From Antedon mediterranea (lineage: Eukaryota > Echinodermata > Crinoidea > Comatulida > Antedonidae): a DNA stretch of 64,000 bases. The notes below the pieces were generated by a model. It had not been told where the DNA came from. It searched no databases and worked only from the letters and a program-made list of their open reading frames with translations. The position numbers were made by a program, and so were the translations under genes. Shown here piece by piece: positions 3,682-62,700 of the stretch (its first letter is position 1; every line of letters begins with the position of its first letter). The stretch lies in assembly GCF_964355755.1 (NCBI RefSeq), contig NC_092678.1, positions 5,242,922 to 5,306,921 of the forward strand. The letters are read 5' to 3'.

Positions 3682-6600
3682 GCATTTCATGTAATAAGGT
3701 CCCATTCATACATGATTTAGCGAGGACATTTCATGTAATAAGGTCCTAATTCATACATGATTTAGCGAGGACATTTCATGTAATAAGGTCCTATTCATAT
3801 ATGATTTGACGAGGACATTTCATGTAATAAGGTCCCATTCATACATGATTTAGCGAGGGCATTTCATGTAATAAGGTCCCATTCATATATGATTTGACGA
3901 GGACATTTCATGTAATAAGGTCCCATTCATACATGATTTAGCGAGGGCATTTCATGTAATAAGGTCCTATTCATACATGATTTAGCGAGGGCATTTCATG
4001 TAATAAGGTCCCATTTATACATGATTTAGCGAGGACATTTCATGTAATAAGGTCCTATTCATACATGATTTAGCGAGGACATTTCATGTAATAAGGTCCT
4101 ATTCATACATGATTTAGCGAGGACATTTCGTGTAATAAGGTCCCATTCATACATGATTTAGCGAGGGCATTTCATGTAATAAGGTCCCATTCATATATGA
4201 TTTGACGAGGACATTTCATGTAATAAGGTCCCATTCATACATGATTTAGCGAGGGCATTTCATGTAATAAGGTCCTATTCATACATGATTTAGCGAGGAC
4301 ATTTCATGTAATAAGGTCCCATTCATACATGATTTATCGAGGGCATTTCGTGTAATAAGGTCCCATTCATACATGATTTAGCGAGGACATTTCATGTAAT
4401 AAGGTCCTATTCATACATGATTTAGCGAGGACATTTCATGTAATAAGGTCCCATTCATACATGATTTATCGAGGGCATTTCGTGTAATAAGGTCCCATTC
4501 ATACATGATTTGGCGAGGACATTTCATGTAATAAGGTCCTATTCATATATGATTTAGCGAGGACATTTCATGTAATAAGGTCCCATTCATACATGATTTA
4601 GCGAGGGCATTTCATGTAATAAGGTCCCATTCATACATGATTTAGCGAGGGCATTTCATGTAATAAGGTCCTATTCATACATGATTTAGCGAGGACATTT
4701 CATGTAATAAGGTCCTATTCATACATGATTTAGCGAGGGCATTTCGTGTAATAAGGTCCCATTCATACATGATTTGGCAAGAGCATATCATGTAAAAAGC
4801 TCCCATTCATACATGATTTAGGGAAGGCATTTCATGTAATATAGGTCCTATTCATACATGATTTAGCGAGGACATTTCATGTAATAAGGTCCCATTCATA
4901 CATGATTTAGCGAGGACATTTCATGTAATAAGGTCCTATTCATACATGATTTAGCGAGGGCATTTCGTGTAATAAGGTCCCATTCATACATGATTTGGCA
5001 AGAGCATATTATGTAAAAAGCTCCCATTCATACATGATTTAGCGAGGGCATTTCATGTAATAAGGTCCTATTCATACATGATTTAGCGAGGACATTTCAT
5101 GTAATAAGGTCCTATTCATACATGATTTAGCGAGGACATTTCATGTAATAAGGTCCCATTCATACATGATTTTGCGAGGACATTTCATGTAATAAGGTCC
5201 TATTCATACATGATTTGGTGAGAGCATTTCATGTAATAAGGTCCCATTCATACATGATTTAGCGAGGGCATTTCATGTAAAAAGGTCCCATTCATACATG
5301 ATTTAGCGAGGACATTTCATGTAATAAGGTCCTATTCATATATGATTTAGCGAGGGCATTTCATGTAATAAGGTCCTATTCATACATGATTTAGCGAGGG
5401 CATTTCATGTAATAAGGTCCTATTCATACATGATTTGGCGAGAGCATTTCATGTAATAAGGTCCCATTCATACATGATTTAGCGAGGGCATTTCATGTAA
5501 TAAGGTCCTATTCATACATGATTTAGCGAGGACATTTCATGTAATAAGGTCCTAATTCATACATGATTTAGCGAGGGCATTTCATGTAATAAGGTCCCAT
5601 TCATACATGATTTAGCGAGGACATTTCATGTAATAAGGTCCTATTCATACATGATTTGGCGAGAGCATTTCATGTAATAAGGTCCCATTCATACATGATT
5701 TAGCGAGGGCATTTCATGTAATAAGGTCCTATTCATACATGATTTAGCGAGGGCATTTCATGTAATAAGGTCCCATTCATACATGATTTAGCGAGGACAT
5801 TTCATGTAATAAGGTCCTATTCATACATGATTTAGCGAGGACATTTCATGTAATAAGGTCCCATTCATACATGATTTAGCGAGGACATTTCGTGTAATAA
5901 GGTCCCATTCATACATGATTTGGCGAGAGCATTTCATGTAATAAGGTCCTATTCATACACGATTTGGCGAGAGCATTTCATGTAATAAGGTCCCATTCAT
6001 ACATGATTTAGCGAGGGCATTTCATGTAATAAGGTCCTATTCATACATGATTTAGCGAGGACATTTCATGTAATAAGGTCCCATTCATACATGATTTAGC
6101 GAGGGCATTTCATGTAATAAGGTCCTATTCATACATGATTTAGCGAGGGCATTTCATGTAATAAGGTCCTATTCATACATGATTTAGCGAGGGCATTTCA
6201 TGTAATAAGGTCCCATTCATACATGATTTAGCGAGGGCATTTCATGTAATAAGGTCCCATTCATACATGATTTAGCGAGGGCATTTCATGTAATAAGGTC
6301 CCATTCATACATGATTTAGCGAGGGCATTTCATGTAATAAGGTCCCATTCATACATGATTTAGCGAGGGCATTTCATGTAATAAGGTCCCATTCATACAT
6401 GATTTAGCGAGGACATTTCATGTAATAAGGTCCCAATCATACATGATTTAGCGAGGGCATTTCATGTAATAAGGTCCCATTCATACATGATTTAGCGAGG
6501 GCATTTCATGTAATAAGGTCCCATTCATACATGATTTGGCGAGAGCATTTCATGTAATAAGGTCCCATTCATACATGATTTGGCGAGAGCATTTCATGTA

Positions 6601-8985
6601 ATAAGGTCCCATTCATACATGATTTAGCGAGGACATTTCATGTAATAAGGTCCTATTCATACATGATTTGGCGAGAGCATTTCATGTAATAAGGTCCCAT
6701 TCATACATGATTTAGCGAGGGCATTTCATGTAATAAGGTCCTATTCATACATGATTTAGCGAGGACATTTCATGTAATAAGGTCCTAATTCATACATGAT
6801 TTAGCGAGGGCATTTCATGTAATAAGGTCCCATTCATACATGATTTAGCGAGGGCATTTCATGTAATAAGGTCCTATTCATACATGATTTAGCGAGGGCA
6901 TTTCATGTAATAAGGTCCCATTCATACATGATTTAGCGAGGACATTTCATGTAATAAGGTCCTATTCATACATGATTTAGCGAGGACATTTCATGTAATA
7001 AGGTCCCATTCATACATGATTTAGCGAGGACATTTCGTGTAATAAGGTCCCATTCATACATGATTTGGCGAGAGCATTTCATGTAATAAGGTCCTATTCA
7101 TACACGATTTGGCGAGAGCATTTCATGTAATAAGGTCCCATTCATACATGATTTAGCGAGGGCATTTCATGTAATAAGGTCCTATTCATACATGATTTAG
7201 CGAGGACATTTCATGTAATAAGGTCCCATTCATACATGATTTAGCGAGGGCATTTCATGTAATAAGGTCCTATTCATACATGATTTAGCGAGGGCATTTC
7301 ATGTAATAAGGTCCTATTCATACATGATTTAGCGAGGGCATTTCATGTAATAAGGTCCCATTCATACATGATTTAGCGAGGGCATTTCATGTAATAAGGT
7401 CCCATTCATACATGATTTAGCGAGGGCATTTCATGTAATAAGGTCCCATTCATACATGATTTAGCGAGGGCATTTCATGTAATAAGGTCCCATTCATACA
7501 TGATTTAACGAGGGCATTTCATGTAATAAGGTCCTATTCATACATGATTTAGCGAGGACATTTCATGTAATAAGGTCCCATTCATACATGATTTAGCGAG
7601 GGCATTTCATGTAATAAGGTCCCATTCATACATGATTTAGCGAGGGCATTTCATGTAATAAGGTCCCATTCATACATGATTTGGCGAGAGCATTTCATGT
7701 AATAAGGTCCCATTCATACATGATTTGGCGAGAGCATTTCATGTAATAAGGTCCCATTCATATATGATTTAGCGAGGACATTTCATGTAATAAGGTCCTA
7801 TTCATATATGATTTAGCGAGGGCATTTCATGTAATAAGGTCCCATTCATACATGATTTAGCGAGGGCATTTCATGTAATAAGGTCCTATTCATATATGAT
7901 TTAGCGAGGGCATTTCATGTAATAAGGTCCCATTCATACATGATTTAGCGAGGGCATTTCATGTAATAAGGTCCCATTCATACATGATTTAGCGAGGGCA
8001 TTTCATGTAATAAGGTCCCATTCATACATGATTTAGCGAGGGCATTTCATGTAATAAGGTCCCATTCATACATGATTTAGCGAGGGCATTTCATGTAATA
8101 AGGTCCCATTCATACATGATTTGGCGAGAGCATTTCATGTAATAAGGTCCCATTCATACATGATTTGGCGAGAGCATTTCATGTAATAAGGTCCCATTCA
8201 TATATGATTAAGCGAGGACATTTCATGTAATAAGGTCCCATTCATACATGATTTAGCGAGGGCATTTCATGTAATAAGGTCCCATTCATACATGATTTAG
8301 CGAGGACATTTCATGTAATATAGGTCCTATTCATATATGATTTAGCGAGGGCATTTCATGTAATAAGGTCCTATTCATATATGATTTAGCGAGGGCATTT
8401 CATGTAATAAGGTCCCATTCATACATGATTTAGCGAGGGCATTTCATGTAATAAGGTCCCATTCATACATGATTTGGCGAGGGCATTTCATGTAATAAGG
8501 TCCCATTCATACATGATTTAGGGAAGGCATTTCATGTAATAAGGTCCCATTCATACATGATTTGGCGAGAGCATTTCATGTAATAAGGTCCCATTCATAC
8601 ATGATTTAGCGAGGGCATTTCATGTAATAAGGTCCTATTCATACATGATTTAGCGAGGACATTTCGTGTAATAAGGTCCTATTCATACATGATTTAGCAA
8701 GAGCATATCATGTAAAAAGCTCCCATTCATACATGATTTAGCGAGGGCATTTCATGTAATAAGGTCCTATTCATACATGATTTAGCGAGGACATTTCATG
8801 TAATAAGGTCCCATTCATACATGATTTAGCGAGGACATTTCATGTAATAAGGTCCCATTCATACATGATTTGGCGAGAGCATTTCATGTAATAAGGTCCT
8901 ATTCATACATGATTTAGCGAGGACATTTCATGTAATAAGGTCCCATTCATACATGATTTGGCGAGGGCATTTCGTGTAATAAGGC
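3682..8985. repeat. 44-bp satellite array, about 120 copies
   Basis: The monomer begins GCATTTCATGTAATAAGG and ends TTTAGCGAGG; the period is exactly 44 bp. Each copy holds a 7-bp inverted repeat, TCATGTA...TACATGA, 15 nt apart. Variants (C/T in GGTCCY, AGCG versus GGCG, GAGGRC versus GAGAGC) recur in blocks, showing higher-order repeats. For example a rare TACACGA variant occurs at 5956 and 7101, 1145 bp or 26 monomers apart. There is no long open frame because 44 is not a multiple of three. Confidence 0.97.
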
Positions 8986-10852: not shown

Positions 10853-11056
10853 TATATAGGATTATCATCTATGCTGCCTTTGATGAAAATAATATTTCCA
10901 CACGTCCAATCAAATGACGTCATTATTAGTAAGAGCAATAATATCGTGACAATACACGAACGAATTTATTGTTTTTGTTGATCATCATTTGATTAGATTA
11001 AGAAAAATTGTATTTATCAAATACAGCATAAATGATTATCCTATAGGCCTAGTTCT
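10853..11056. mobile_element. MITE, family 3, second copy
   Basis: Shares TTTGATGAAAATAATATTTC, the adjoining CCAATCAAATGACGTCATTA and the terminal GCATAAATNATTATCCTATAG with the copy at 8997-9165. It lies about 140 bp past the gene B stop codon. Confidence 0.5.
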
Positions 11057-11198: not shown

Positions 11199-14100
11199 TT
11201 AGTAGTTTTCTTCTTCCAAAAGTTCCCTTAACTTCTGTACCAACCCTCCTATAAAGAGACAAAGTAATCATTAGCCTGCCTACTAAAGCTGTTGAAATAC
11301 ATTATCAGCCGATCAGCACGATGACTGCGATTGTCATGATTTTTTGTTTTGTTTTTTTATGGGGCGGGTGAGTGTACGAGCCACACGTTATGTTATACGT
11401 TTGTGCTCGTTGGGTTGCATTATTGGTTTCAGGGGATGAACCCAAATAAACACAAGTGTGCCATGATAGCCACACTAGCCTCATTATTAATGCAACCTTT
11501 TTGAAAACAAAATAAATATAGCAATAATAATAAAAATAATTATAATAATATCAAATGATTATGAGGATTTAGATTTAAAAAAAATAGAAATTGCGATCCA
11601 CTCGAAAATACATACCATAGCTTTTCTTGGCTTCATTAAATACTACCCTCTTTTCTACAAAAGGAAACACACAAAAAATTAATTACACAGTGATGTGGTC
11701 ATATTAATGAGCTATAATGTTGGTTAGTTATTGATATTTATGGGCAACAGTGCTTTAGGAAGAACAAGCCACGTGTTATTAATTTATTTTCAACTGTGAA
11801 ACTTTTTAAAAATTATTTTAGTGATTTACACAAAAATAACAAATAACTAAATAATTATTAATATTTATAATTAAATTTATACGTTCATAACTCAACAATG
11901 TAATTAGTGTTATTTACTATTTAAAATTTTAACAATAAAGAGATATGTAACAACATTTAAAATGTAACCGTTTAGATTGAAGTAGAAATAATAAATAAGA
12001 AGAGTCAAAGTAATCATTAGCCTGCCTACTAAAGCTGTTCAAATACATTATCAGCCGATTTTCACGATGACTGCGATTGTAATGATTTTTTTTTATGTGG
12101 CGCGGTTGAGTGTACGAGCCACACGTTATGTTATACGTTTGTGCTCGTTGGGTTGCATTATTGGTTTCAGGCGATAAACCCAAATAAACACAAGTGTGCC
12201 ATGATAGCCACACTAGCCTCATTATTAATGCAACCTTTTTGAAAACAAAATAAATATTTTAACCTAATAGTAGAAATAATAATAAATATAATTATAATAA
12301 TATCAAATGATTATGAGGATTTAGATTTTAAAAAAAATAGAAATTGCGATCCACTCGAAAATACATACCATTGCCTTTCTTGGCTTCATTAAATACTACC
12401 CTCTTTTCTACAAAAGGAAACACACACAAAATTAATTACACAGTGATGTGGTCATATTAATGAGCTATAATGTTGGTTAGTTATTGATATTTATGGGCAA
12501 CAGTGCTTTAGGAAGAACAAGCCACGTGTTATTAATTTATTTTCAACTGTGAAACTTTTTAAAAATTATTTTAGCGATTTACACAAAAAATAACAAATAA
12601 CTAAATAATTATTAATATTTATAATTAAATTTATATGTTCATAACTCAACAATGTAATTAGTGTTATTTACTATTTTAAATGTTAACAATAAAGAGATAT
12701 GTAACAACATTTAAAATGTAACAGAAGCGAATCCAGGATTTTAAAATAGTTTAGATTGAAGTAGAAATAATGAATAAGAAGAGACGAAGTAATCATTAGC
12801 GAATACGTCATCGCTTGTGATTGGTCAATTCACTTGCGTTGCGTTACGTCCTTGTGTTGCCGCGCTAGTGGGAACCACGCTTAACCAATGACAAGCGAAG
12901 TTATAGACAGTTAGCAATCACAAGCGAATAAGCCATCGCTTGTGATTGGTCAATTCACTTGCGTTGCGTTACGTCCTTGCGTTGCGTCGCTAGTGGGAAC
13001 CACGCTTTAAGCTGCTCAAATACATTATCAGCCGATTTTCACGATGACTGCGATTGTAATGATTTTTTGTTTTGTTTTTTATTTGGCGCGGTTTAGTGTA
13101 TGAGTCACACGTTATGTTATACGTTTGTGCTCGTTGGATTGCATTATTGGTTTCAGGCGATAAACCCAAATAAACATGATAGCCACACTAGCCTCATTAT
13201 TAATGCAACCTTTTTGAAAACAAAATAAATATTTTAACCTAATAGTAGAAATAATAATAAAAATAATTATAATAATATAAAATGATTATGAGGATTTAGA
13301 TTTTAAAAAAAAATAGAAATTGCGATCCACTCGAAAATACATACCATTGCCTTTCTTGGCTTCCTCAAATACTACCCCCTGATTCTTTTCTACAAAAGAA
13401 AACACACAAAAAACATTAATTAATGACACAGCGATGTGGCTATCAATGAGCTATATGTTGGCTAGTTATTGATATCTATGGGCTGCCAACAGTGAGCTAT
13501 ATGTTGGCTAGTTATTGGTATCTATGGGCGGCCAACAGTGCTTTAGGAAGAATGAGCCACGTGTTATTCATTTATTTTCAACTCTGAAACGTTTTTTTTA
13601 AATTATTTTAGTGATTTACACACAAAAATAACAAATAACTAAATAATTATTAATATATATAATTAACTTTATACGTTCATGACTCAACAGTGTAATTAGT
13701 ATTATTATTATTTTACATTATGACAATAAAGAGAGATATGTAACAACATTTAAAATCAAAATGTAATGCGAAAAACAGGGGCGAATCCAGGATTTTTAAA
13801 TAGTTTTAGAGTGAAGTAAAAGTAATAATAAATAAGGTGGTTAAGATTTGATTGATGGGTTAGTGAAATTTCCTGATTCATGTTGATCATGTAGATAAAG
13901 CTGTACTTACTCGCAGTCTGTGTATTACAAGTTGGTCCCGTGTAACCATTAGTACATTGACATAGCCAGATATTTCTCAAAAGGCTGAAGACCTCACAGT
14001 CGCCGTTGCCATTGCAACTGTCGTAAAAAGTCATACAATCGACTTTTTGGGGGAAAAAATAACTTAGTAGCAATAAGGATTAATATAATATAATAATGAT

Positions 14101-15560
14101 AACATTTTGTTCTCTGTAGTCGTTACAAAAAAGAAACAAAGAAAATGATGAAATAAAGTTTTAGGCTGAGCCAGTTATGTGGGACATGATACACTGAACA
14201 CAAAGAGTGGCAAACTCAACGAGCGCACACACAGATATTGTTAACAACTTATTAAAATAAAGTTAATTGCGATACATACTATAGTTTAGGCTGGCCTTCT
14301 TAGACAGTGTTTCTTTTTTGCCCTGGGTTTCTTCTATCTGTCTTTCTTCCTCTAAAAAAAAAACAATTGATCACAAAACGACGTACCATAGATTAGAATG
14401 CGTTCATTTATTTTCAATAAGGTTTATCGCAAATACTAGCGTACGTGGCTGATGTTGATTTGGCACTCGTAGCGACGTTTGCTCCCACCCTTCCTCAGCC
14501 ATGACGTCCCTCGCGAAATCAAGCTATTTGCGATAAACCTTATGCAATAGGCATACATTTACACAAGAAATAATATATGTACGTATCTAAGAACAAGTAT
14601 TAGCAATTTTCTATGACATTTAATAAAATCATTTAACCAAAAGTACTGTAAATACATTTTTTACACTAGTTTTGTTTATTTAGAAACAGTGACAAGATAG
14701 GATCGATCGCAATTTCATAGAGTACTTCATCACAAAGAGGCGTTCAAATCCGCCACTGGAATCGAAAGAAAAAAGATGAAAACACGCGAAAAGAAAAGAA
14801 AAATATATGCAACAATAACCTAGTAGGCCTACATTTGAACACCTTGTGCGATACAATTTTTAATTAATAATAACCTAGAATTAACTGCAGATGAAAACAG
14901 AAAAATACTTATAAAATACCTTCGAATTCCAGTAGTTCTTTTAGCTCTCTTACGTCCTCTATAATAAAAAAAAAGCAAAAAGAACAAACAATTACTAGAA
15001 AATGAGCGGAACATGTCAAAATACAGAGCGACAGAGGGCGTGCTATTTAAAATTTCATCTCATATTGAAACATTTTTAGATATTTTAATATTAAATAAGC
15101 TTTTGTAAATTCACCCATATATCAATTGTCCTTAACATGTTCTGTAAGTATATACAGTACATATTAACGCCCACAAGTTCAGGACGATAACTAATTGTTT
15201 GAAGCATCGTGCAAATAACGCAAGATAGGCATTCAATACCGCACTTGACATGTTATTTTGGCAAGTAAATAACCACAGTATTTAATCAACCCCACGTGGG
15301 GAATACAAATCTACTGGATGATTTAAGTTGGGTGATGGATCTTTAAATAATAAATACTGTAAATATATGGTGTTTGGGAGGGGAAAGTGGGGGAGGGGGA
15401 GCGGTTGAACCTAGCCCCCGGCGTACATTATTCGATACAGCTTCGATGTTACGTCGTCCAGCAATTAAAAAAGACCGTAATAATTAATAAGTAAATACTC
15501 ACCAAATAGACTTGCAAACGCTATTGACATGAGGGTTGCAAATATCAGTGCTCGATACAT
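11199..15560 (-). CDS. Gene B: secreted EGF protein with three dibasic-flanked VVF(N/E)EA repeats
   Basis: Eight coding exons were joined: 15503-15560, 14920-14958, 14280-14351, 13911-14042, 13345-13389, 12369-12407, 11616-11654 and 11199-11248. All introns are GT-AG and phase 1, giving 157 residues. Residues 1-19 are a signal peptide (MYRALIFATLMSIAFASLF). Residues 20-56 are charged and probably helical (DVRELKELLEFE). Residues 57-100 form one EGF domain with six cysteines. Residues 101-141 come from three mini-exons: KKNQGVVFEEAKKGN, EKRVVFNEAKKGN and EKRVVFNEAKKSY. The last exon encodes GLVQKLRELLEEENY and TAA. The KR/KK sites around each VVFxEA core resemble a multi-copy peptide precursor, but that processing is inferred. 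First-exon length, phases, EGF exon and helical tail make it a paralogue of gene A. I do not recognise a named family. Confidence 0.8.
11263..13840. repeat. Three ~0.75-1.05-kb tandem units, each carrying one gene B mini-exon
   Basis: Units at about 11263-12005, 12009-12783 and 12786-13840 start at AGTAATCATTAG and end near GTTTAGATTGAAGTAG. Each contains the phrase ATTATCAGCCGAT, the stretch ACACGTTATGTTATACG and one 39-45-nt exon. The third unit is enlarged by family-1 MITE sequence (12786-13010). The duplication multiplied the exon without disturbing the frame. Confidence 0.9.
12786..13010. mobile_element. MITE family 1, two tandem copies
   Basis: Two head-to-tail copies of the segment from CATCGCTTGTGATTGGTCAA to CTAGTGGGAACCACGCTT, in the gene B intron between exons 5 and 6. 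They split the third of the three duplicated units. Confidence 0.65.
14415..14545. mobile_element. Short inverted-repeat element in gene B intron
   Basis: ATAAGGTTTATCGCAAATA at the left and TATTTGCGATAAACCTTAT at the right are perfect inverted arms around about 85 bp of GC-richer sequence. It is a MITE or foldback with no coding frame. Confidence 0.65.
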
Positions 15561-15947
15561 GGTAATTGAGTTCAGGGCTTTCTGTCAAAATAAGTCCAGG
15601 TATAAATATTTTAAAGTTTCAATAAACATTTATTTAAGATGGTCATTACAAACAATATATAACAAACAATGACAAATTATACACATTTTATTTGGACACC
15701 AGCAATCTAAATGCGATAATCTATATTATCTTTTCGACGATTCAGAGTAATTTAGAAATAGTTTGGCATATTGTAGGCATACAGAAGCTGGCAGCAATCA
15801 CCCCCATAGTGGGATATACCACCACATTGAGGCATGAGATGGGTGTGTACCTAGGCTGCATAACTTACCTTATTCTTGAGTTGTAGTAATATGTAACTAA
15901 CTTCCTTCTAACTGGCAACTAATACGCTACCTACTGTTTATATACAC
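15561..15947 (-). promoter_or_regulatory. Gene B promoter and 5' non-coding exon
   Basis: On the minus strand TATATAAA lies within 15934-15947. About 30 bp downstream a non-coding exon (about 15912 to 15869) ends at a consensus donor (AAG/gtaag). The acceptor (gacag) places the next exon start at 15581, 21 bp before the ATG. This layout mirrors that of gene A. Confidence 0.5.
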
Positions 15948-59795: not shown

Positions 59796-62700
59796 ACTTA
59801 CTTATGTGTGCAGCTCGCTTCATTGGGATTATAATCTAAAAATGTAAAAAATAAGAAATAATTGTTAAAATGATTCTAATTACTCTACATAGTTATTGAA
59901 TTTATTTATTTTTATACTGGATGACCTCTTCAGTCAACGACTGGTCTTTCAGAGGGCCCAATTATGATCAGTGGCTAACCCCCTACTCGTTTCGAAAGAT
60001 GTAATAGGGTCTTTAAAGTGCACACAAGCCAGATGTGTACACTGGACCTATGGTTTATAGTCCATATCCGAAAAGCCTTGTTCTACCACCAGAACCATGA
60101 AGCGAGTGAGCCTCGAACCTTGACGATGTTATGCCTACGTAATTATGGTTCCACTTTCTTAACCGCTCAGCCACTGTTTTTGGGAGAATAGAGTGTAACT
60201 TACCCCATTATGTACATAAGAATCGCATTCATAACACCAGACTGAAAGATCTGCATAACTTAGAACTAAGCAGTGGCCACTCACAACACCATGTTTTACC
60301 ATGTGAGACTCAACATATCGTCCACAAAGAACCTAAGAAAAGACAATACAAGATTGTTGCCTGGAATTATAGAAGGGCTTTCGAAAGAATCAGGATTAGA
60401 CTGAGCAATAGTTAATACAATAGAAAGCAGGCCTGAACAACAGTACAAGAGCTGTCTCTTATCGTATAGATAGTATAGCATAACAGTGTGTTAAGGGTAC
60501 ACACATCTTCATATTAAAATATTATGCAAAAGTCTTCATACCATGTAACAGTGCAGACACACCCAATTTTCTTTGCTATCTCCACATTCAAAACATGGTT
60601 CATCAGCGTGAAGCCCGCCTTCGGGCAAAGCAGTAACACCTTCTAGATGTGGACACCATGTTAGTGGCACTACTGCGTACATCTGCATCTGCAATATGAA
60701 ATACATAAACATTTAGAGATCCTCTACTAAAGGATTAAATGTTCTACTAACAGATCTACAGCAAACTAATTTGTACATTCTGGCTTTTGAAATCTAATTT
60801 TGTTAAAACTCACATTTTCTCCAAGAATGTCCGTCATGGCTCCAATGGTTCCAGGCTGCTGAGCAACACCACCTACAGCTCCAATGGCATCTTCCGATAC
60901 CTTTACATTGTCATTCGGTTGCGTCTTGTGAAAGACATTGCCAGAACCTCGACCTTTGACCGCTTCAGGAGACTGTATATCCGAAGAACAAGAGTGGAAA
61001 CTTTCATCAGGACACGCGCTGTTGGATGAGATTGACATCTCAGATGTAGACTGGATGAGGTCATCCACAGAGGTACTGCTGGCTGCAGATGCTCTGGTGG
61101 ATGGCTTGGCGGTAGCATCACCATTGCCTCCACTCTCTGATTGGCTGGGAAAAAAAAATGTATATACACAACCAAATTCATGGAGGATTGGAGTTTCTAA
61201 TTCAATATTGTAGTACAATTACAGTACGAAATCCGAAGTATAGTCATTATCTCGGAACCATTCTATAGTCACCACCAGGTAGGCTTACTTCACCAAGGCT
61301 TCTATGAATGGATGACGAGTTGGGAGCAGGAACGCTAGTAGACCAAACCCAGTACCATTTTGATTAATATTATGCAGGAAATACCTCATGACACAACCAA
61401 ATTCACAAGTGGAATTTCTTATTCAATACTGCAGTACAATTACAGTACGTTACATTACTGCTATAAATCTAAGTTACTGCAGTAACCAATCCAATAACAA
61501 AACATGAATATTTACCTGTCTTTTGTGACTACTGGCAGTGGTCCTGAAAAAAAATGCATTGTTTAAAATTAAAGAACAATTCGATTAAAAGATAAAGAAT
61601 GTTTCTACAAATTTACTTGAACAAACTTTCCTTATTAAAACCTCTATTTTCATAGTTGTTCATTGATCATTTAGGAATCCAGCAAGTTAACAATCTACAG
61701 CAACAAAAGTGCTGTTTAAACAAGAGTAAGAGAAGACTTACTTATAAACTGAAGACATTTCCAATAAGGCTTATGGCACTGAATAGTGCTGTGTATGGAC
61801 GCAACAGCTTGCATGTTGGCTGGCTTGGCAGAAGTGAGTACAGGGGTAGGATCACCTAACAATGTTTGGGTACATTGTGCCATTGATTTGGAAATTGATG
61901 ATAAGTTGTAACCACCCTAAGAAATAAATAAAAATGTATTTCAACTAAAACTTTTTTAGTTTAATGTCCTTTACCCTGTGTAAGTAACAAAGCTCGTTTT
62001 ATGGCAATCATACAGTATCAGAGCCGTCCCCTTGAAAGCTTCACTACCCCTCATTTTTTTAAAATATTAGATTTTCCAAAACCTTCAATTTTCAGTAATA
62101 CAATTGATAGCAAACATATTGTACCTCTAATACAACGATAACATGTCCATTGGCTAAGCTGCTTAGCATGTGAGTCATTTGGCCATAACATTCAGGGTTC
62201 ACAAGATATCCACCCTAAGCGGAAAATATATTGAAAAAAATGAGAAATATTAGTACATATTTGAAGCTCTGTCTACACTTTTAAACTTTATGTGACAAAA
62301 AATGTGAAGTGACCATATGTGGACATTGTGATATCACTACCATATTTGGGCACATCATATTTTGTTGTCTCATAAGTTTGATAGTGTAGACAGAGCTTTA
62401 GAAACATTCTGGCTTGTTTATAAAAGGGCAAAATGTACAACATTGATTGAGGACATTGTCACAAACTGAACAGTTTATATTAAACAATCCCCAGAACTTT
62501 ATTTTCACACTTACCAATGGATCTCCCAAGGCAGCATCAAAGCCTGCAGATACAAAGACCAAGTCAGGAGCATACTAGAAAAGGAGGAAATACACACAGA
62601 TAAACAGTGGTCTTATAGTATAATACTTGTCCTGTAAGCAAGTGATCAGGGGACCGAATCCAACAGTTATTCGTTAGTTACCGAGTTGTTTGATATCATT

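Follow-up and report, generated by a model that had tools for sequence, protein, structure and literature searches.

A putative secreted precursor with an EGF-like module and tandemly duplicated, dibasic-flanked mini-exons beside an EGF polyprotein gene in the crinoid Antedon mediterranea

Does a gene that places a run of tiny, dibasic-flanked repeat exons behind an EGF-like module encode a peptide hormone, or does the repetition reflect local duplication of DNA? The question is raised by gene B, which lies on the minus strand of a 64-kb stretch of the Antedon mediterranea genome (this whole stretch is referred to here as the window). Rebuilt from its splice signals, gene B has eight coding exons (15560-11199) that encode 157 residues, separated by seven GT-AG introns of 237-937 nt, every one of which is in phase 1. 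The exons are read from DNA, and the predicted splicing is probably that of the gene. A possible TATA box (TATATAAA, 15937-15944) lies upstream of a probable non-coding first exon (15869-15915, 5' end approximate) with a GTAAGT donor (15868-15863), and an AATAAA at 10965-10970 may act as polyadenylation signal, all on the minus strand; these elements round out gene B as a plausible gene. Coding exon 1 (58 nt, 15503-15560) encodes a signal-peptide-like MYRALIFATLMSIAFA-SLF, with a hydrophobic start and, by eye, a cleavage-like AFA/SLF site, features common to the neighboring gene A. Coding exon 2 (14920-14958; DVRELKELLEFE) is leucine-rich and acidic and looks helix-like by eye. The acidic/basic coding exon 3 (14280-14351) places KK44-45 and KK50-51 ahead of the EGF-like module, which is encoded by coding exon 4 (13911-14042) and has a cysteine spacing of 6-5-11-1-8. 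Three mini-exons and a final coding exon (11199-11248; GLVQKLRELLEEENY and stop) complete the frame.

Apart from exon 4, the coding exons measure 39-72 nt and account for 342 of the 474 nt of coding length. Together with the uniform intron phase, this could point to a variable protein of micro-exon type, in which symmetric cassette mini-exons would be skipped or included; but EGF exons are ordinarily of phase 1-1, and symmetry alone is thus expected. We consider such a protein very unlikely, although seven of the eight coding exons, at no more than 72 nt, fall inside the 3-81 nt span that PMC10526429 reports for exons of schistosome micro-exon genes (MEGs).

An earlier note had described the three mini-exons as 45, 39 and 39 nt long, each encoding a VVF(N/E)EA unit followed by KK, with KR before the last two units and a KK four residues upstream of the first. 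The rebuilt gene reproduces this description exactly, coordinates included. Mini-exon 1 (13345-13389; KKNQGVVFEEAKKGNE) reads KKNQG-VVFEEA-KK-GNE, with K102 four residues ahead of V106, mini-exon 2 (12369-12407; EKRVVFNEAKKGNE) reads KR-VVFNEA-KK-GNE, and mini-exon 3 (11616-11654; EKRVVFNEAKKSYG) reads KR-VVFNEA-KK-SYG. We scanned both strands of the 64 kb for all acceptor-donor pairs 30-60 nt apart that enclose an open phase 1-1 exon, with the limitation that the splice matrix was a human-type consensus. At the mini-exons' own scores, a threshold chosen post hoc and applied to exons that are not independent of one another, three candidates were returned from both strands, exactly the three mini-exons; with any symmetric phase allowed, there were five. 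Thresholds of 3 and 2 bits again left these three alone, those of 2 and 1 bits gave seven candidates, and a threshold of zero gave 55. Among 400 Markov sequences that modelled the intron region concerned, not one held an exon candidate of equal quality. The three mini-exons are probably exons.

At 13 residues the mini-exons are too short for a protein search, and their absence elsewhere was judged by a DNA pattern search. With up to two mismatches, the VVFNEAKK pattern occurs at 17 places in the 354-Mb genome (reversed control, 40). Its only two exact occurrences are both in gene B, the VVFEEA exon matches with two mismatches, and the remaining 14 places are background.

The repetition is the product of one young duplication series and not of three independent conserved units. 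Self-comparison and alignment place the three mini-exons in a tandem genomic duplication on the minus strand (11254-13806, extent approximate), with start-to-start distances of about 740-755 bp between copies 2 and 3 and of 975-1040 bp between copies 1 and 2. Each mini-exon was aligned together with the 370 nt upstream of it and the 350 nt downstream, and gap columns were excluded. Differences in exon and flank positions, respectively, number 2/39 and 20/679 for copies 2 and 3 (Fisher P 0.34), 2/39 and 47/649 for copies 1 and 2 (P 1.0), and 4/39 and 55/642 for copies 1 and 3 (P 0.77). The compared flanks, which are intron, are hence 91-97% alike, and across the three aligned copies the mini-exons are no less diverged than their flanking introns. 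Three codons differ between the copies, and the encoded residue is changed in all three. Only copies 2 and 3 carry KR, copy 1 being distinguished by a 6-nt indel whose six extra nucleotides yield the KKNQG reading. Because the copies are young and exon divergence is not below intron divergence, the recurrence of VVF(N/E)EA and of KK/KR is no sign of selection.

Tandem repeats abound in the window (38 rows with a score of at least 100), which makes a tandem duplication locally unsurprising. This abundance, and the fact that the duplicated segment is mostly intron, would also suit the proposal that the second and third mini-exons, or the entire set, are dormant exons that were carried along with the duplicated intron and are not used; all three, however, keep their frame and splice signals, in a window that offers no other candidates of equal quality, and we hold this proposal to be extremely improbable. 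Two copies of a high-copy repeat (12788-13007, no strand assigned) lie in the intron that separates mini-exon 1 from mini-exon 2, and the 30-nt core of this repeat has 4477 genome matches at up to three mismatches, with none for the reversed control. By eye, the repeat is MITE-like, and it may have aided the duplication.

We term the module in coding exon 4 EGF-like on account of its cysteine spacing and of sub-threshold profile matches. Its best Pfam match is EGF_Teneurin (E 8.4e-5), with 23.0 bits against a cut-off of 24.3, and it falls just below the cut-off of every Pfam EGF profile. NCBIfam, a prokaryote library that carries little weight here, gave no match. Among sequences of solved structures the best match was heregulin-alpha, a weak one (E 0.096). 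AlphaFold modelled the lone EGF exon with a pLDDT of 70.6 and a pTM of 0.39, the other four models lying near 45, and a Foldseek search with this poor model returned no match at E <= 0.001. An EGF fold is neither supported nor refuted by the model and the empty Foldseek search.

Gene A (2773-870) is found on the same strand, has phase-1 introns and encodes 219 residues. Its coding exon 1 (58 nt, 2716-2773) is signal-peptide-like (MIRLIVIFTFVSAAFA-GLF) and is followed by four near-identical EGF modules, the first after EAR (2139-2273, 135 nt) and the others after EKR (1760-1894, 135 nt; 1382-1516, 135 nt; 1018-1155, 138 nt). The final exon (870-928) encodes TRELDLLRRLLSKLK, also read as TSSQTRELDLLRRLLSKLK, and the stop. 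Three of the four module copies lie within a 378-bp tandem array. One gene A module passes the Pfam EGF_2 threshold (22.6 versus 22.1). Among solved structures gene A fares better than gene B, with 38 sequences matching at E <= 0.1 and Notch EGF repeats reaching an E of 4.1e-7. Genes A and B have in common the 58-nt signal exon, in which 9 of 19 residues are identical, and a leucine-rich, charged last exon, and BLASTP relates B to A with an E of 8e-12 that is carried mainly by the EGF part. The two genes are paralogous in layout, and since the signal exon, the last exon and BLASTP agree, we regard them as tandem paralogues that differ in how their middle exons were amplified. Comparisons of exon and intron divergence among the gene A modules gave small Fisher values in five of six pairs, which we discarded because the upstream flank of module 1 and the downstream flank of module 4 lie outside the duplication. 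For modules 2 and 3, the properly duplicated pair, exon and flank divergence gave a Fisher value of 0.58. Between the two genes lies a satellite with a 44-bp unit in about 120 copies (window 3682-8984).

At E <= 1, a whole-genome search with gene B returned 13 matches, of which six fall within genes A and B. Four of the seven others were inspected, and only a gene on contig C11 (E 0.48) resembles the layout. The gene A module gave at least 11 matches at E <= 0.01 with 150 of 317 candidates scored, five of them within A and B; five of the remaining six were inspected, and four of these belong to genes with several ordinary EGF exons. The 5 kb to the left of the window contained no relative. At 1695585-1695782, the C11 gene is a small, secreted-looking, single-EGF gene in which NLLQVLRELL stands directly ahead of the module, and there is no dibasic pair between this helix-like LRELL stretch and the EGF-like module. 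With the C11 protein as query, gene B ranks second (E 0.017), amid generic EGF matches at similar scores. The match is weak, and the C11 gene may be a third relative of A and B. At the far end of the window, a 150-residue open frame of non-repetitive composition (60766-61218, minus strand) may represent an exon from a gene unrelated to these.

We then considered whether the dibasic sites speak for processing. The 141 residues of gene B that follow the signal include 16 Lys and 6 Arg and contain eight dibasic pairs, compared with 3.3 expected by shuffling (P 0.005), a value we reject as evidence because the mini-exon copies are not independent. With one mini-exon kept, there are four pairs versus 1.8 expected (P 0.09), and the dibasic count of gene A is likewise not significant (P 0.40). 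These numbers would be in keeping with an uncut structural or matrix protein that is secreted, holds its EGF-like module between leucine-rich charged stretches, uses the mini-exons as neutral linker and owes its basic pairs to a lysine-rich composition; the related-looking C11 gene, which lacks a dibasic pair at the corresponding place, would agree with this. EKR, however, is repeated both at the module boundaries of gene A and at a mini-exon boundary of gene B, and an uncut protein seems to us improbable. It is the position of the dibasic sites in gene B, rather than their number, that is suggestive. KR is usually cut in preference to KK, and KR at P2-P1 with Glu at P3 makes a prohormone-convertase rather than a furin site. 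In genes A and B alike, Glu occupies P3 of the KR sites, which would fit a prohormone convertase and not furin. Were KR cut but KK left intact, the predicted products would be NQGVVFEEAKKGNE, VVFNEAKKGNE and VVFNEAKKSYGGLVQKLRELLEEENY, and not VVFNEA. Release of free VVFNEA appears less likely because it would need cleavage at KK in addition to KR. The predicted peptides of gene B end in Ala or Glu and lack an amidation Gly.

The earlier note had seen in gene B the layout of a hormone precursor. Its architectural part stands, namely a precursor of secreted type in which repeated, dibasic-flanked mini-exons follow an EGF-like module. Its hormone part is not borne out because the copies are young, KR is found in copies 2 and 3 only, the collapsed dibasic count gives a P of 0.09 and there is no amidation Gly. 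A multi-copy bioactive peptide, with VVFNEA or VVFNEAKKGNE as the hormone and mini-exons amplified for dose, could still be argued from the signal-like N-terminus, from KR ahead of two copies and KK behind all three, and from the adjoining gene A, which amplified a KR-bounded unit too; moreover, a repeated-peptide precursor of conventional type elsewhere in the genome shows that this animal has such genes. Set against these points are exon divergence equal to that of the introns, codon differences that all change the residue, a first copy that lacks KR and the absence of VVFNEA from the open-access literature searched. We judge a hormone of this kind unlikely, if worth serious weighing.

We favor, with a probability of roughly 0.55, the reading that gene B encodes a secreted precursor paralogous to that of gene A, in which the EGF-like peptide is the main active product and the repeats serve as spacer or minor peptide. 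On this reading, gene B would be transcribed and spliced as predicted, and the products of both genes would enter the secretory route by their signal peptides. The gene A polyprotein would be cut at the EKR ahead of modules 2-4 into EGF-like peptides. The gene B precursor would be cut likewise by a prohormone-convertase-like enzyme, mainly at KR and perhaps at KK, to release an EGF-like peptide bounded by KK51 and KK101, or a longer form that retains its neighbors. The mini-exons would give rise to KR-bounded, 11-residue pieces of the VVFNEAKKGNE type, except that the third copy would remain attached to the LVQKLRELLEEENY stretch at the C-terminus. The rise to three mini-exons is explained by a recent tandem duplication, unequal in kind, of the genomic segment, and since every intron is in phase 1, an added or skipped mini-exon keeps the frame. 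A broader proposal treats the A-B pair as one exon-amplification cassette locus descended from a single secreted EGF gene, in which A multiplies KR-bounded EGF modules and B a KR-bounded unit of 13 residues, so that one precursor would release a growth-factor-like peptide together with several copies of a new peptide, and copy number could change by tandem duplication and by exon skipping in frame; this we find distinctly unlikely.

Provided that its mini-exons are both translated and cut, gene B would represent a young case of a repeated-peptide precursor arising exon by exon in an EGF gene, with the duplication history of the mini-exons still readable in the introns. If nothing is cut, gene B is an ordinary intragenic tandem duplication. 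Gene A suggests that crinoids, which are sister to all other living echinoderms, possess EGF polyproteins laid out like the precursors of sea-urchin exogastrula-inducing peptides (EGIP).

The conventional repeated-peptide precursor came to light with the A. mediterranea PCNP4 peptide, GLFPTGGMDPLGASYFT-NH2, flanked by KR and GKR, which matches the genome at 22 of 22 residues, as expected of a feather star close to Antedon. A second peptide from PMC9793003 had no match in the genome, and a COX2 search likewise returned none. On contig C3 (158156-159235, minus strand), PCNP4 is followed by 15 more matches of a 20-residue repeat, mostly AFPGSGGMDTLGNGYFTGKR, and peptide and repeats lie within one open frame of 463 residues. 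The repeats are reminiscent of starfish SMP / pedal peptide-orcokinin type peptides. In the available text of PMC9793003, AmedPCNP4 is described with a single peptide, and the SMP / pedal peptide-orcokinin type was not found in A. mediterranea.

We compared genes A and B with known systems of similar layout. Echinoderm repeated-peptide precursors, such as those of the SALMFamides and the predicted crinoid PCNP1-20 of PMC9793003, have an N-terminal signal and short, dibasic-bounded repeats, an outward layout that the signal-like N-terminus and mini-exons of gene B resemble, whereas gene B includes an EGF-like module and lacks an amidation Gly. Neither EGF nor epidermal growth appears as a term in the main text of PMC9793003, and VVFNEA is not among the peptides spelled out in the text of its section on PCNP2-20, where several are described without sequence. 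No paper in the open-access literature searched combined the terms EGF domain, neuropeptide precursor and dibasic. Schistosome MEGs resemble gene B, in layout only, as secreted-type proteins from short symmetric exons, but they belong to another phylum, and gene B has an EGF-like module and exons derived by duplication. The 6-5-11-1-8 cysteine spacing of gene B is near the pattern of ErbB/EGFR ligands such as neuregulin and EGF. The ErbB ligand consensus places an Arg directly before the sixth Cys; this Arg is missing from gene B, where Thr is found (GPTC), and from gene A, where Asn or Lys is found (GNNC/GNKC). The EGIP precursor, according to cDNA work in Anthocidaris crassispina, reportedly consists of several EGF modules with dibasic sites. 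Gene A likewise has several EGF modules in a secreted-type precursor, with EKR before three of the four. To say, as the earlier note did, that no described family has this arrangement was therefore too strong, since the gene next to B is an EGF polyprotein with KR between its modules that resembles EGIP as reported. Gene B differs from EGIP in having a single EGF-like module, with KK on either side, and in repeating a non-EGF unit of 13 residues. The sea-urchin EGIP gene encodes small, EGF-related, probably secreted peptides whose role is unknown, according to the available part of PMC9231221, and egip is used as a marker for the presumptive ciliary band (PMC3009687, available part). The likeness is one of layout: gene A fits the EGIP arrangement, and gene B stands beside it as a variant.
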